Shown here: in pieces, positions 635 to 47,518 of the stretch
How the letters are laid out: every line of letters begins with the position of its first letter
Position numbering within the stretch: position 1 is the first letter of the stretch
Assembly: GCA_001872725.1 (NCBI GenBank)
Contig: MNWR01000092.1
Span: 1 to 48,234, forward strand
Direction: 5' to 3'
DNA: 48,234 nt
From: Proteobacteria bacterium CG1_02_64_396
GTDB taxonomy: Bacteria > Pseudomonadota > MNWR01 > CG1-02-64-396
Position numbers and translations under genes: made by a program
Notes under the pieces: generated by a model
Seen by the model: only the letters and a program-made list of their open reading frames with translations
Told to the model about the DNA's origin: nothing
Database searches by the model: none

Positions 635-1228
635 CTACGGTTTGGCGGCGATGGCGTAGACGTGGTTGAGCGGGTGTTGATCCAGTTCCAGATGCAGCAC
701 TTCAAGCCCTCGCCCCCACAGAAGTTCAAGGTTTTGCCGGATCCCGATGGAGCTGTAATAAAAAGTGTCGTCGTGCCAGCGGTCGGTGTGTTCGCCGCTG
801 GCGTTGCCGAAGGTGTAGATCAAAACCCCCTGCGGGCGGAGCCAATCGCACAGTTGGGTCAGCACCCGGGGATGTAGGGCCAGGGGCAGATGGAAGAGGC
901 TGTCCCAGGCCACGATCAGATCGAATGGCTCATCGTTCTGCCAAGTGGCGATGTCGTGGTGGAAAAACCGGTGTTCGGGATGGGCCGCCCGCGCCAGATC
1001 CACCATCGCCCGCGACACGTCGACCCCCGTCACCGCAAACCCACGATCTTGCAGCAGCCGGATCACCCGCCCCCCCGCGCCGCAACCCACATCGAGCGCC
1101 TTGCCCCCCGTCGGCGCGAAACCCAGCGCCTGCTCGATCTGGGCAAGGCCGTAGTCGGAGCCGTCATGCCGGTCGCGCCACCAGTCGGCGATCTTGTCGT
1201 ACTTGGTTCCAAGAACAGTGGGATCCAT
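635..1228 (-). CDS. SAM-dependent class I methyltransferase
   Basis: Predicted 197-residue cytosolic methyltransferase. Motif I, LDVGCGAGG, is at about residues 45-53. An acidic ribose-binding residue follows in VTGVDVS, and FDLIVAWDSLFHL is the motif IV region. This is the small Methyltransf_11/25 fold used for diverse small molecules, so the substrate cannot be named. I chose the ATG at 1228 rather than the one at 1249 because GGAGGGG lies seven bases upstream. It is the last gene of a four-gene minus-strand operon, 30 bp after the acetyltransferase gene. No partner gene reveals the substrate; a role in modifying a metabolite or toxin would be guesswork. Confidence 0.85.
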   Translation of the reverse strand: MDPTVLGTKYDKIADWWRDRHDGSDYGLAQIEQALGFAPTGGKALDVGCGAGGRVIRLLQDRGFAVTGVDVSRAMVDLARAAHPEHRFFHHDIATWQNDEPFDLIVAWDSLFHLPLALHPRVLTQLCDWLRPQGVLIYTFGNASGEHTDRWHDDTFYYSSIGIRQNLELLWGRGLEVLHLELDQHPLNHVYAIAAKP

Positions 1229-2309: not shown

Positions 2310-4046
2310 TCAACCGGTTGAGCGGTCGGTCACGTACAGGGTCGATCCGTCGCCGGCGATCCCCTGCGGATTGGCAAACCTGGCGGCGGCGCCGATCCCG
2401 TCGCTGGCCCCCCCCTGACCCGTCGTTCCGGCCAGGGTGGTCACCGTTTGGGGGGTAATCAGAATCTGGCGGATCGTGTTGTTGCCGCTGTCGGCCACGA
2501 ACAACGAGGCGCCGTCGCAGGCGATGCCGTAGGGGCCGTTGAAGGTCGCAGCCGTGCCGACGCCGTCGTCGCTCCCCCACACCCCCGCGCTCCCCGCCAG
2601 GGTGGTGACCGCGCCGGTGATCGGGTCGATGCGGCGGATGGTGCTGTTGCCGTAATCGCTGACGTACAGGTCGATCCCGTCGGTCGTGATGCCGTAGGGG
2701 TTGTTGAAGCGGGCCGCCGCGCCGACCCCGTCGCCCGATCCCGACAATCCCGCCGTGCCCGCTAGGGTGGTCACCCGGGTCGTGGCCAGATCGATCTTGC
2801 GAATGGTGTGGTTGGCGTAGTCGGCCACATACAGGCTGGCTCCGTCGCAGACGATGCCACTGGGACCGTTGAAACTCGCCGCTGCCCCGATGCCATCCGC
2901 GCCGCCCCAGGTGCCAGGGCTCCCTGCCAGGGTGGTCACCATGCCGTTGGCGGGATCGATTCTGCGAATGGTGCTGTTGCCGAAATCGGCCACATACAGG
3001 TAGGTGCCGTTGCCGGTCAGACTGTAGGGGCCGTTGAACTGAGCCAGGGGACCGGCATTGTCGACCGCGCCGCCGATTCCGGCGGTTCCAGCCACGGTGG
3101 TCACCGCCCCGGCAAGGCTCAGGGAGGCCCCGATGATACCGCCCCCCACCAGCCCGGTACGCACCACCCGCGCCCGGATTTCGAGGGGAACTCCACCCAA
3201 GGGGGGGGCGGCGGCGAAGTTGTAGGCGGCCACGACGAGGGCATTCACCCCGGCCGGATCGAGCGGCGGCAGGGGAACGGTCGTCCCTGTACCGGTAGAC
3301 ACCGCAATTGCACCACCGCTCGCGCCGATCCCGTCGAGTTTGCCATCGGCCAGATCGTCGCTCAGAGCGACGTTCACCGCGAAGGGATCGGCGCCACCGA
3401 GCCCCGCCACCGTCAAGGCCGGGTCCCGACCGAGCAGCGCCAGCCCCCCGAGTAGGGCGGCATATTGTTTCTGAGCCGCGCTCGACCCGGCAGGCAAGTT
3501 CAGGGGATCGACCGGCTCCGTGGCAAAGGGGTCGATGCCGAAGCGGTTGCGGGTTTCGATCCGCGCCCGCGCCGCAGCGGTCGTGATCGCCATCCCCCCC
3601 GCGGCCAGACTGCGTGCTCTCAGATCGGCGGCGTGGGTCAAGGGAGTGACCGCCACCGTCAGGATAGCGTCGGCGCCGGGCAGGGTTTCGATCAAGCCGC
3701 GCAGCTCCCCACCCATGGCGACGCTGGCTCCAGTGGCCGGATCGACGTAATTCCCCCCGCTGGCGACCACCTCCAGCGGCAGGCTTGCCCCGGCGGGAAT
3801 CCGCCCCACCCAGCTGCCGGAGCCGTTCGTTGCAAAGGGGCCGGCCACCGCCGCCCCCCGCGCCCCTCCGGTCTTCAAGGTGTACACGGTGACTGTCGCC
3901 CCGCCAACTGGGGTCACGACGACCGTTCCCTGGATGGTGACGGTGGGAACCGGCTTGGTGGACGAGGAGGCGACGAAGCAACCGCTCAAGGCAATGCAGA
4001 CAGCGCTCCCGAACAAGAGCGATTTTATGGGAATCGAGGTATTCAT
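2310..4046 (-). CDS. NHL-repeat lipoprotein (frameshifted, C-terminally truncated as read)
   Basis: The signal peptide MNTSIPIKSLLFGSAVCIAL ends in the lipobox LSGC, so this is a probable outer-membrane or periplasmic lipoprotein. Residues 30-320 are a Ser/Thr/Gly-rich region with beta-sandwich character (TVTIQGTVVVTPVGGATVTV). A beta-propeller part follows, with 55-residue NHL repeats of the type DGVGAAARFNNPYGI...LYVSDYGNSTIRRIDP. Five repeats lie in this frame; the sixth lies beyond a one-base frameshift (2128-2309). The start at 4046 (second of two ATGs) sits seven bases after AAGGAG. It follows the 199-residue lipoprotein gene by 20 bp. NHL propellers bind proteins or act as lyases or sensors; no specific ligand can be named. 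Confidence 0.8.
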   Translation of the reverse strand: MNTSIPIKSLLFGSAVCIALSGCFVASSSTKPVPTVTIQGTVVVTPVGGATVTVYTLKTGGARGAAVAGPFATNGSGSWVGRIPAGASLPLEVVASGGNYVDPATGASVAMGGELRGLIETLPGADAILTVAVTPLTHAADLRARSLAAGGMAITTAAARARIETRNRFGIDPFATEPVDPLNLPAGSSAAQKQYAALLGGLALLGRDPALTVAGLGGADPFAVNVALSDDLADGKLDGIGASGGAIAVSTGTGTTVPLPPLDPAGVNALVVAAYNFAAAPPLGGVPLEIRARVVRTGLVGGGIIGASLSLAGAVTTVAGTAGIGGAVDNAGPLAQFNGPYSLTGNGTYLYVADFGNSTIRRIDPANGMVTTLAGSPGTWGGADGIGAAASFNGPSGIVCDGASLYVADYANHTIRKIDLATTRVTTLAGTAGLSGSGDGVGAAARFNNPYGITTDGIDLYVSDYGNSTIRRIDPITGAVTTLAGSAGVWGSDDGVGTAATFNGPYGIACDGASLFVADSGNNTIRQILITPQTVTTLAGTTGQGGASDGIGAAARFANPQGIAGDGSTLYVTDRSTG

Positions 4047-4066
4047 CATCGGTCTCCTTGCTGGCA

Positions 4067-4666
4067 TCACTGGGCTGTGAAGTCCCAGGTAGCGGTCAGG
4101 TCACGCCCCAGACAGCTCCAGGTCCCGGTCAGACGGGCGGCATCGGTGTGGTGGACCAACCCACTGCCGCCGGTGGAGCAGGCGGCTGTCCCCACCATGA
4201 AGAGCAGCCCCGAAGCGGGGTATGGGGTTGCCACACCACCGCAGGTCAGGTTGATGACGGCGGTCGGATCGACCTTGAGGGTGAAGTTGTGAGACAGGGT
4301 GTAGGGGGCGGTGGCCTGGCCGTTGAAAGCGGTCAACAGCGAATCGGGGTTGAGTGCGTCGCCGCTCGAAATGGCAAGCGAAAAGGTCGCCGGGGTGCAG
4401 CCGGGAACGGTCAGGGTGCCATCCAGAGTGCCGCTGCCCAGATAGCCGCCGTAGTCGATTTGGCTGTCGTACAGGCTCCAGTTCAAAGTGGCGACCGCGT
4501 CGAGATCGGAACGGAGCAGATGGACACTTCCGACATAGGTCACCGGGGTGGTGGCGGTGCTGCCGCTCCCCCCCGAAGGGTTGGCGACGGTCGTGTCGCC
4601 GCCGTTGCAGCCGGGCAGCAGCGCGACTGCCAAACCGGCAATCAGAAGGATGGGATCGATTTTCAT
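4067..4666 (-). CDS. Small secreted lipoprotein of unknown function
   Basis: 199 residues, first gene of the minus-strand operon. The signal peptide MKIDPILLIAGLAVALLPGC ends in a clear lipobox (LLPGC). The mature part starts with a Gly/Ser/Thr linker and continues as a beta-rich domain with four or five cysteines (VPGCTP, LTCGG, AACSTGG, WSCLG), consistent with disulfides in the periplasm. AAGGAG stands seven bases before the ATG. I recognise no family. It shares promoter and probably cellular location with the NHL-repeat lipoprotein that follows, so the two may work together at the envelope; that is inference. Confidence 0.8.
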   Translation of the reverse strand: MKIDPILLIAGLAVALLPGCNGGDTTVANPSGGSGSTATTPVTYVGSVHLLRSDLDAVATLNWSLYDSQIDYGGYLGSGTLDGTLTVPGCTPATFSLAISSGDALNPDSLLTAFNGQATAPYTLSHNFTLKVDPTAVINLTCGGVATPYPASGLLFMVGTAACSTGGSGLVHHTDAARLTGTWSCLGRDLTATWDFTAQ

Positions 4667-29420: not shown

Positions 29421-29566
29421 CTAGGAGTCTGTCGGACTTGAGATCGTCCTACTGCGCCGGCGGGTAATCGGTCCAAATTTCCCCGGTTTTTCGTCACATA
29501 GCCACCACTATGATCCTCATTCCCCACTCGGCTCGCTACGGACGCTCAAGCCCGACAGACTCCTAG
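29421..29566 (+). repeat. Dispersed repeat family 1, copy 2 (internally deleted)
   Basis: 146 bp, bounded on both sides by CTAG and by inverted GAGTCTGTCGG ends. It matches the copy at 45666-45834 closely but lacks 23 bases: the stretch running from AAACCGTG to GGCCTCGA. That stretch is one arm of the element's internal inverted repeat. It lies between the rimP promoter and the stop of the SulP-cNMP gene. Confidence 0.9.
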
Positions 29567-44677: not shown

Positions 44678-45646
44678 TTACCTCAATACAGCCACACTAC
44701 CGTTCTTGATGGCCTTCAGACCACGGTGGACACGAGGCCAGTCGATCGATTCTGGCTGGCGCGCCATATTGTGGTACGGGCCGCGTCGATCCAAGAACCA
44801 CACGATGCGTGCATAGAGCATGTCGCCCGCCACCCCACCCAACCGATCCGCAGAGATCTCGGCAAATGCCTCCCACTCTCCGGGTTCTCCAAACCAACGC
44901 GGCATCAAATGCCATGCTTTGCGAAAATAGTAGGCGGTGTAGGTGGGCTCGTTGGCAATGGCCTGTTGAAACAGCCGCTCATAGGGTTCCCGTTCCCATC
45001 CGGAAAGGGCGATGCGCTGGAACGCCGCCAACCAACCGGGACAACGGGTCCCATGTTCTTGAACAGCCAGCAAAGCCTGGGTTGCCTCCTCCAATCGATC
45101 ATCAAATAACTGCCACTGGCTCTGAGACACATCTTTGGACCAACCGTAGCTGCGTCCAAAAAAGGCGTACCCCACCTCACACTCGGCAAGCGCCACATGT
45201 GCGGTCACCGAGTCGGGGTTTTCGGCAACCCATTGCTTCAATCGCTTGAGCCGTTGTTCCCAGTTCTCCTCGGAAGCGGTGCGCAGGTAGTACGACATGC
45301 CGTCGTAAAAAACACTCAGCTTCCATTCCCCATCTGAAAACATCTCCTTCGAAGCGCGGAATTTCGAAGCCAATGCCTCAAGCTCGGCGAACTTCCCCGA
45401 CAGCAACAACCGTTCGGCCTGTTGTTGCAACCCTTGCTTCATTGCCAACTCTTGCTGGTAGACGCCGGCCTCCTGTTGCCAAACGACCGAATCCGCCGCC
45501 CCTGCCGACAATGGTTGGAACAGCCCCAACAACATCGAGATGAGTATGACCGCGCGTTGGACGCGATCCCCTCTTGGAGATCGGGTGTTGGGTGCCGAAC
45601 CTCCCGATTCAACCGAAGCAAAACCTACTTGGGCGGGTACGGCCAT
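44678..45646 (-). CDS. DUF4034-like secreted protein
   Basis: About 322 residues as given. A hydrophobic stretch preceded by arginines (RVQRAVILISMLLGLFQPL, then SAGAAD) looks like a signal peptide. The mature part matches my memory of the DUF4034 pattern: LLSGKFAELEALASKFRASK, DGEWKLSVFYDGMSYYL, WEQRLKRLKQWVAENPDSVT, and WHLMPRWFGEPGEWEAFAEI followed by SADRLGGVAGDMLYARI. The family's function is unknown. The protein stops soon after WPRVHRGLKAIKNG, probably short of the usual C-terminus. The start is uncertain. ATG 45646 has no ribosome-binding site and lies only 20 bp from repeat family 1 copy 3, which may have removed the native start; ATG 45535 would leave too short a signal. Confidence 0.68.
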   Translation of the reverse strand: MAVPAQVGFASVESGGSAPNTRSPRGDRVQRAVILISMLLGLFQPLSAGAADSVVWQQEAGVYQQELAMKQGLQQQAERLLLSGKFAELEALASKFRASKEMFSDGEWKLSVFYDGMSYYLRTASEENWEQRLKRLKQWVAENPDSVTAHVALAECEVGYAFFGRSYGWSKDVSQSQWQLFDDRLEEATQALLAVQEHGTRCPGWLAAFQRIALSGWEREPYERLFQQAIANEPTYTAYYFRKAWHLMPRWFGEPGEWEAFAEISADRLGGVAGDMLYARIVWFLDRRGPYHNMARQPESIDWPRVHRGLKAIKNGSVAVLR

Positions 45647-45665: not shown

Positions 45666-45834
45666 CTAGGAGTCTGTCGGACTTGAGATCGTCCTACTGC
45701 GCCGGCGGGTAATCGGTCCAAATTCCCCCGGTTTCTCGTCACATAGCCACCACTATGATCCTCAAAACCGTGAAAATTTGGCCTCGATTCCCCACTCGGC
45801 TCGCTACGGACGCTCAAGCCCGACAGACTCCTAG
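45666..45834 (+). repeat. Dispersed repeat family 1, copy 3 (fullest copy, MITE-like)
   Basis: 169 bp with CTAG at both ends. Terminal inverted repeats of about 21 bp share GAGTCTGTCGG and TTGA with one mismatch. Inside are a second inverted repeat (GGTCCAAATTCCCCCGGTTT against AAACCGTGAAAATTTGGCC) and a central dyad CATAG...CTATG. The element can thus fold into a long branched hairpin. CTAG fits the CWAR target preference of IS5-type transposases and may be the target duplication. It has no transposase and would need one in trans. Confidence 0.9.
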
Positions 45835-45874: not shown

Positions 45875-46120
45875 TCAGTTGGGTCCATCGGAGTTTATCA
45901 ACGTGCCATCGCTCTTGGCGAATGACAACCCTTTCCCACCATTCAGGGGGTGGCCGTCCCAGTCGAGCGGTGCCTCGAACAGGTGGATGTCGATGAAGCC
46001 CGACAAAAGGGGTCCGACAGGAAAACCGCCCCGTCCATTGCCATTGCAACCGCGTCCGCATCGAGTTGAAGATTGATCCCCAATGATGGACGGCGTTGGT
46101 CGGTGTCAACCCAAAACACG
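45875..46120 (-). pseudogene. Decayed gene fragment of unknown family
   Basis: On the minus strand the reading TVFWVDTDQRRPSLGINLQL, DADAVAMAMDGAVFLSDP is followed, after one missing C in a CCCC run at 46009-46012, by LLSGFIDIHLFEAPLDWDGH, PLNGGKGLSFAKSDGTLINS and DGPN, then a stop at 45875. Both halves have protein-like composition and join smoothly, so this looks like the 3' part of a former gene. Its 5' part would overlap the small gene pair and is gone. I do not recognise the family. Confidence 0.4.
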
Positions 46121-46170
46121 GTTAAACAACGCCCCGCTCCACCATCGGACCAAGAAAGGAATCTTCCACC

Positions 46171-46287
46171 ATGCGCCGACGCCTCTCGATCCTGCTGCTT
46201 CTGCCCGTCCCTTGGATTGCCCACGCCGAGGTCTTTGAATCGGGGATGGGGATGCTCTTCGAGGCGGACCGACCGACCGCGCCATGA
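46171..46287 (+). CDS. Very small secreted peptide (38 residues)
   Basis: An open frame too short for most gene finders: MRRRLSILLLLPVPWIAHA is a well-formed signal peptide (three arginines, a leucine core, AHA cleavage site). The predicted mature part is about 19 residues, EVFESGMGMLFEADRPTAP. AAGGAA stands nine bases before the ATG. Its stop codon overlaps the ATG of the next gene as ATGA, the same coupling used by real genes elsewhere in the window, which is the best evidence that it is translated. No family is recognised. The product would be periplasmic or secreted. Confidence 0.6.
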   Translation: MRRRLSILLLLPVPWIAHAEVFESGMGMLFEADRPTAP

Positions 46288-46517
46288 CCGAACACGACAT
46301 CATCGCCGCCTTTTGGCGTTTGTTTGAGGCCCCGCTGATTTGGACCGGCGAGATCATCCTGTTCATCGTGAGCTTTGGAAAACATCGCCCCCGTTGGGAC
46401 CTCTACCAAACCGAACGGGGCAGCCGCTGGGCCTTTTTCTCAGAGATCAGCTGGTGGATCGGCGCATTGTTCTGGCTGGGGGTTATGGTTGCGGTGTGTG
46501 CGTCTTGGGGGACGTAA
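46284..46517 (+). CDS. Small membrane protein of unknown function (77 residues)
   Basis: Two hydrophobic helices (about residues 15-32, APLIWTGEIILFIVSFG, and about 54-73, EISWWIGALFWLGVMVAV) are joined by a charged loop KHRPRWDLYQTERGSRW. The positive loop suggests a hairpin with the loop in the cytoplasm. It is translationally coupled (ATGA) to the 38-residue secreted peptide. Tryptophan content is high (six in 77). I recognise no family. A small envelope module made of a short exported peptide plus its membrane partner is one reading, but nothing in the sequence states its function. Confidence 0.65.
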   Translation: MTEHDIIAAFWRLFEAPLIWTGEIILFIVSFGKHRPRWDLYQTERGSRWAFFSEISWWIGALFWLGVMVAVCASWGT

Positions 46518-46642: not shown

Positions 46643-47518
46643 TTATACAAACCGCTTCACGTACTCCTCGACCCCCATCAACGCACCGCCCGCCAAACGC
46701 TCGGCATCGTGCGACGTCGCCGCCATCTCCCCCGCCGCCACCGCCGCGTACATCCCCAGAAGCGCCTCGACCAGGTAAGGAGGCAGGCCGAACTGGGCGA
46801 GCATGGCGCCGAACTGCTCGGGATCGGCATCGACCGCCTGAATCGTTTTGCCACTGGCCGCCGACAACGCCGCCGCCACCTCGCTCAAATCGAGCGCCCG
46901 GGTTCCGGCGATTTCGTAGGTTTTGCCCTCGTGCCCCGACTCGGTCAGCACGGTCGCCAACGCCCGAGCGATGTCACCCCGCCCGATGTAGGCGACCTTG
47001 CCCGTCGCCCCCGGCTGGGCCAGAACGCCGCTCTCCAAGGCGTGGGGGATGGCGCTGTCGAGGTTTTCGAAATACTGGTTGTTGCGCATCAAGGTGTAGT
47101 CGAGCCCCGAAGATTTCAGATAGTCCTCGGTGTCGCCGTGGACCGCCCCAAAGGTGAACAAACTCGCAGGACTGGGATTGCTGAAGCTGGTGTAGACCAC
47201 CCGCTTGACCCCGGCGTGCTTGGCAGCATCGATGGCGGCGCGGTGCTGGGCGATGCGCAGCTCGTTGGGGGCGTCGCCCGAGATCAGCAGCAGCACCTCA
47301 CCACCAGCAAAAGCGGCCTCCAGGCTGGCAGCATCGCCGAAGTCGGCCCGAACGGTGGCGGCCCCTTGCGCGGCAAAGGGGGCAAGTTTGGCGGGATCGC
47401 GGCTGGTCAGACGCAGCTTGTCGGTGGACAGCCCCCGGTCGAGCAACGCTTGGGTGGTCAGGGTTCCGAGGTGACCGGCGGCGCCGGTGATGACGATGAA
47501 GGGGGATGCGCTGCTCAT
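46643..47518 (-). CDS. NmrA-like/SDR family NAD(P)-dependent oxidoreductase
   Basis: 291 residues. The N-terminal Rossmann motif is FIVITGAAGHLGTLTTQALL (GxxGxxG), followed by LRLTSRDPAKL, where the arginine would favour NADPH. KHAGVKRVVYTSFSNP and DYTLMRNNQYFENL are typical of NmrA/QOR2-type atypical SDR proteins, which reduce quinones or sense NADP(H). The ATG at 47518 follows AAGGAG. It is divergent from an HxlR regulator, a common arrangement in which the regulator senses electrophiles or quinones and controls the reductase. Confidence 0.88.
   Translation of the reverse strand: MSSASPFIVITGAAGHLGTLTTQALLDRGLSTDKLRLTSRDPAKLAPFAAQGAATVRADFGDAASLEAAFAGGEVLLLISGDAPNELRIAQHRAAIDAAKHAGVKRVVYTSFSNPSPASLFTFGAVHGDTEDYLKSSGLDYTLMRNNQYFENLDSAIPHALESGVLAQPGATGKVAYIGRGDIARALATVLTESGHEGKTYEIAGTRALDLSEVAAALSAASGKTIQAVDADPEQFGAMLAQFGLPPYLVEALLGMYAAVAAGEMAATSHDAERLAGGALMGVEEYVKRFV

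Follow-up and report, generated by a model that had tools for sequence, protein, structure and literature searches.

The downstream member of two small overlapping genes, ORF2, is by its sequence no orphan, and belongs to a rare, uncurated and scattered family of membrane proteins that is sparse in the sampled genomes. We regard this hairpin protein as the functional core of the locus and the upstream frame, ORF1, as a real, lineage-specific translated leader that would feed it ribosomes, a reading that we hold with about even confidence. Both frames were found in a 48,234-nt stretch of DNA (hereafter the window), and their coordinates are collected in Table 1 with those of the flanking genes.

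Both frames lie exactly where a first-pass annotation had placed them, at the lengths that it gave, and the features it ascribed to them were recovered: an ATGA overlap between the two, a signal peptide and a Shine-Dalgarno sequence for ORF1, and a two-helix, tryptophan-rich protein for ORF2. The ORF1 translation (MRRRLSILLLLPVPWIAHA / EVFESGMGMLFEADRPTAP) begins with three arginines and a hydrophobic core that lead to an A-H-A cleavage pattern (AHA/E), and a crude rule-based pattern recognises this N-terminus as a secretion signal. The AAGGA upstream of ORF1 is modest as a Shine-Dalgarno and slightly far from the start (-4.9 kcal/mol against the anti-Shine-Dalgarno, spacing about 9 nt), the anti-Shine-Dalgarno letters used for pairing energies being general ones rather than those of this genome's 16S. 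ORF2 carries eight tryptophans in its 77 residues, and an AlphaFold2 model built on a five-row alignment has helices at residues 3-29 and 46-75 (mean pLDDT 82.5, pTM 0.62).

Table 1. Features of the ORF1/ORF2 locus and its flanks, in window coordinates.
Feature	Coordinates	Strand	Description
DUF4034 protein	44678-45520	minus	
Shine-Dalgarno-like AAGGA of ORF1	46153-46157 (approximate bounds)	plus	anti-Shine-Dalgarno pairing
ORF1	46171-46287	plus	38 aa; residues 1-19 predicted as Sec signal peptide, leaving 19 residues as the mature peptide
ATGA start/stop overlap	46284-46287	plus	4-nt overlap of ORF1 and ORF2
ORF2	46284-46517	plus	77 aa; two-helix membrane protein with conserved W-T-G-E and G-K-H-R-P-R-W-D-L-Y
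NmrA-like NAD(P)-binding protein	46643-47518	minus	

The reference table for codon usage came from 29 of the window's long ORFs, which we selected from the ORF list by eye. Against it, ORF1 scored +8.9 bits and ORF2 +27.1 bits (0.234 and 0.351 per codon, respectively), both per-codon values falling within the range spanned by the 29 genes themselves (0.11 to 0.59), and the long competing ORFs across the two frames had negative scores. In 90-nt segments, the best-scoring, positive frame changed from that of ORF1 to that of ORF2 at the overlap; a dip in the score was seen around 46210, where one minus-strand frame briefly reached +5.8. Codon statistics thus back both frames, ORF2 strongly and ORF1 moderately, and the description of the locus as two coupled small envelope genes finds support in them as well as in the sequence. 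We take ORF2 to be a real gene and consider it quite probable that ORF1 is one too.

That ORF2 is the only gene here, preceded by an open frame (ORF1) that arose by chance, seems unlikely to us. Such a reading draws on the 47% of 20,000 ORF1 shuffles that stayed open, so that the length of ORF1 is by itself uninformative, and on the lack of ORF1 relatives in 59 further phylum genomes (its own genome returned only ORF1 itself) and in the plasmids collection. Against it, just 1.6% of the open shuffles matched the signal rule and 0.02% attained the codon score of ORF1, and a chance frame would also have to account for the Shine-Dalgarno and the exact ATGA junction. A similar picture emerged from 157 ATG-initiated ORFs of 25-70 aa, ORF1 included, that are not in frame with the 29 table genes: at least 8.9 bits were reached by six and the signal rule was matched by three, with ORF1 the only one to combine the two. 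Against Pfam and NCBIfam, ORF1 gave nothing above cut-off (Piezo_TM25-28, at E 0.32, fell below it).

ORF2 likewise had no library match in Pfam, NCBIfam, PHROGs or PADLOC; one other member of its family reached E 0.065 in PHROGs. In the 59 other phylum genomes, single-sequence searches with ORF2 gave weak matches only (E 0.004 to 0.96), many of which had stop codons, were very short or lay within long unrelated frames; plasmids and phages gave none. Across 398 phylum genomes, among which the window's genome is the only one of its class, such a search returned its own genome and one weak match (G358, E 0.00245) that lies within a 345-aa open frame and was taken as chance. A loose motif occurred at seven places in six of these 398 genomes, with only ORF2 itself fitting when the letters were judged by eye, and exact ORF2 peptide patterns were found in neither genome_contigs nor viral_contigs.

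Relatives of ORF2 were obtained with a motif pattern combining the Gly-Glu of helix 1 with the basic loop and modelled in part on similar small proteins. In genome_contigs this pattern returned four stretches, of which two (L033 and L035) were rejected as chance motif matches and two are relatives: L036, from the Deltaproteobacteria MAG nDJH13bin5, and L034, a broken copy (879-1043, minus strand) from the Desulfarculales MAG UBA702. L036 and ORF2 share 55% identity over 56 aa (pairwise E 4e-23), and the identity extends well beyond the searched stretch; it takes in FSEIS.WIG..FWL, which was no part of the pattern. A three-row profile then detected the family in three of 345 genomes of the phylum to which the L036 genome belongs, that genome included; the new members come from G703 and G551, where they were read in L041 (E 4.0e-15) and L042 (E 7.0e-13), respectively. 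With a five-row profile, one of 393 genomes in the window's own phylum was recovered, namely the window's genome, and further profile searches over overlapping sets (1 of 118, 2 of 117 and 2 of 104 genomes) added no member. Viral contigs, plasmids, phages and PDB sequences yielded no match to the family profiles.

All four relatives resemble ORF2 in having two hydrophobic helices, the same motifs and a similar length, and similarity was found across both helices together with G-E and G-x-x-x-P-R-W. The family shares [WF]-[ST]-G-E in helix 1 and a loop of the form G-x-[HR]-[KR]-P-R-W. Residues F10, G22, E23, G32, P36, R37 and W38 are invariant in the five-row alignment, the invariance of G-E and G-x-x-x-P-R-W being in part built in for L036 and L034, both of which were found by motif. 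The literature offered parallels only and no description of this family. The earlier remark that neither protein could be recognised therefore holds for the curated libraries; for ORF2, which has four relatives, it does not.

Hydropathy profiles showed two hydrophobic segments each in ORF2, L036, L041 and L042, and in ORF2, L041 and L042 the N-termini are acidic and the loops basic. Basic loops of membrane proteins generally face the cytoplasm (the positive-inside rule), which together with the acidic N-termini suggests a cytoplasmic loop in ORF2. ORF2 is thus probably an inner-membrane hairpin with both ends outside. The invariant Glu within helix 1 hints at contact with an ion or a partner. 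As for its role, a small regulator or an accessory subunit of a larger membrane protein appears most likely to us, this being the least certain part of our interpretation. A PDB fold search gave a single, meaningless match (E 10), and SMR transporters and ATP synthase c subunits were set aside as parents, in a general comparison, for having the wrong number of helices or lacking the motifs.

The relatives have different neighbouring genes at every locus: the L034 copy is flanked by frames that we read as yebC and ruvC, L041 by what we take to be exonuclease-III-like and nitroreductase-like frames, L042 lies downstream of a presumably Mrr-like frame, and L036 adjoins a frame that we assume to be tyrosine-phosphatase-like. 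We surveyed the sequence upstream of each for same-strand frames of 15-120 codons ending near the start. None of the four had an exported-looking frame and none an ATGA overlap, a count weakened by the uncertain exact start of the L034 and L036 relatives. Within the two genomes from the sampled phylum of the L036 genome, L041 has a 26-codon frame with an 8-nt overlap and no signal, and L042 has no qualifying same-strand frame at all. Unlike ORF2, the relatives stand alone, with no exported peptide coupled to them, and the broken copy in L034 suggests gain and loss of a free-standing gene. At L042 (5825-6441, minus strand), another small frame of membrane-like character directly adjoins or overlaps the ORF2 relative, and the two may form a different small membrane pair.

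Strict coupling had been proposed in the first-pass annotation to mark a functional unit of peptide and membrane partner, and co-conservation of the ATGA overlap had been suggested as a check. At family level, and over large evolutionary distance only, the relatives keep just the second frame, an outcome that the first-pass annotation had named as refuting its proposal. As none of the four has the peptide, their surroundings are unrelated and ORF1 is unmatched in the phylum genomes and plasmids searched, we conclude that the two proteins do not form a conserved unit. The proposed arrangement, in which an exported 19-residue peptide binds or signals via the ORF2 hairpin and coupling sets their ratio, is doubtful for the same two reasons, namely the relatives without such a peptide and the lack of ORF1 matches in the phylum and plasmid searches. 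It does gain from the clean signal peptide with its A-x-A site, from the codon bias of ORF1 and from the 4-nt overlap, since genes for subunits of heteromeric complexes have more than their share of short overlaps (PMC10666635), and, as close relatives are missing from the sampled genomes, the pairing could be young and lineage-specific.

Within the window, the flanking genes lie on the other strand, so ORF1 and ORF2 stand alone without an operon partner. Beyond the NmrA-like gene is an HxlR regulator on the plus strand, and a sulfate-permease-family protein is encoded further left. A MITE-like element with 22-nt inverted repeats (CTAGGAGTCTGTCGGACTTGAG) occupies 45666-45834; its second full copy in the window, at 29421-29566, is slightly shorter, a right-hand arm lies at about 140-154, and no match was found in plasmids. 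Coding-like fragments resembling the remains of a gene occur on the minus strand at 45875-46130 (43-aa frame, GC3 0.77), and the 43-aa piece had no Pfam match.

ORF1 and ORF2 show the short stop/start overlap (-4 or -1 nt) of termination-reinitiation pairs, and the window contains a second 4-nt overlap (2310-4070 with 4067-4666). ATGA overlaps are common in bacteria (PMC6728339; PMC10666635). Overlapping pairs were strictly coupled in 13 of 14 cases tested (PMC6728339), and for two pairs the final 15 nt of the upstream gene proved to be enough (PMC10666635). Our pair is like those described there in its 4-nt overlap, its upstream Shine-Dalgarno and the lack of a well-placed one downstream, and differs from them in that ORF1 has only 38 codons with a signal peptide and in that coupling is here predicted from the sequence. 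The only match to the anti-Shine-Dalgarno upstream of ORF2 is G-rich and 13 nt away (-5.3 kcal/mol). This match pairs at least as strongly as that of ORF1 and falls short in its spacing alone, and the energies are compatible with ORF2 initiating independently of ORF1; several real genes of the window also have no Shine-Dalgarno, so its absence at ORF2 proves little. No promoter-like sites were found in our search, three terminator-like matches all fell within ORF2, and the RNA fold at the junction was ordinary (z +1.1).

Given the measured coupling at overlaps of this kind and an ORF2 without a well-placed Shine-Dalgarno, ORF1 is most likely a leader. A ribosome would start at the ORF1 Shine-Dalgarno, make the 38-residue signal-bearing peptide, stop at the TGA within ATGA and restart at the overlapping ATG to translate ORF2. 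ORF1 would in this way supply ribosomes to a gene whose own Shine-Dalgarno is poorly placed; its peptide, predicted to be exportable, may leave the cytoplasm, and would not be a required partner of ORF2-type proteins. A chain of 38 residues is about the length held by the ribosome tunnel, so co-translational targeting via ORF1 is unlikely and any export would follow release. The clean signal peptide exceeds what a leader needs, which suggests that the peptide has its own function.

A further reading has ORF1 sensing export. In work on monitoring arrest peptides (PMC10987492; PMC7897499), a genome survey looked for small ORFs upstream of sec or yidC that carry a localisation signal, have a C-terminus conserved among homologues and place a spacer of over 30 residues between the signal and the C-terminal end. 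Like SecM, VemP, MifM and ApdP in these sources, ORF1 is a small upstream ORF with an N-terminal localisation signal, and its C-terminal T-A-P-stop, with proline before the stop, recalls the N-A-P-stop and N-S-P-stop clusters reported upstream of Bacteroidota sec genes (PMC10987492). ORF1 could slow or stall at T-A-P-stop unless export pulls on it, and so tune ORF2, in the manner of SecM, VemP and MifM. We consider this very unlikely: only 19 residues follow the signal, shorter than the published spacer, ORF1 precedes neither sec nor yidC (ORF2 having no Pfam match), ORF1 contains no RAPP-like motif, four of the 29 other window genes also end in proline, and the junction fold is not unusual. 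Slimmer still is the chance of a version centred on the rare hairpin gene, in which a self-exported leader would report insertion or export through T-A-P-stop and thereby set the ribosome restarts on ORF2.

TimP, a very short protein with an N-terminal Sec signal (PMC7667032), has a build similar to that of ORF1, and ORF1 could by that likeness be a small membrane peptide with toxic action, akin to TimP or type I toxins. We rate this lowest among the readings considered, because the only Rfam match in the window at the gathering threshold was a tRNA, with none to the timP RNA family (RF00126), because alanine at -3 and -1 favours cleavage in ORF1, unlike TimP, and because ORF1 is coupled to a second gene.

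Were ORF1 nonetheless to sense export, which the evidence makes unlikely, it would widen the class of monitoring peptides, and would do so with a sensor leader far shorter than known ones and outside sec and yidC genes. The case also shows that two small genes need not be a conserved unit just because they share an ATGA overlap. With this locus, an uncurated family of small membrane proteins that bears a clear signature joins the catalogue, and one member only is preceded by a signal-bearing micro-ORF.
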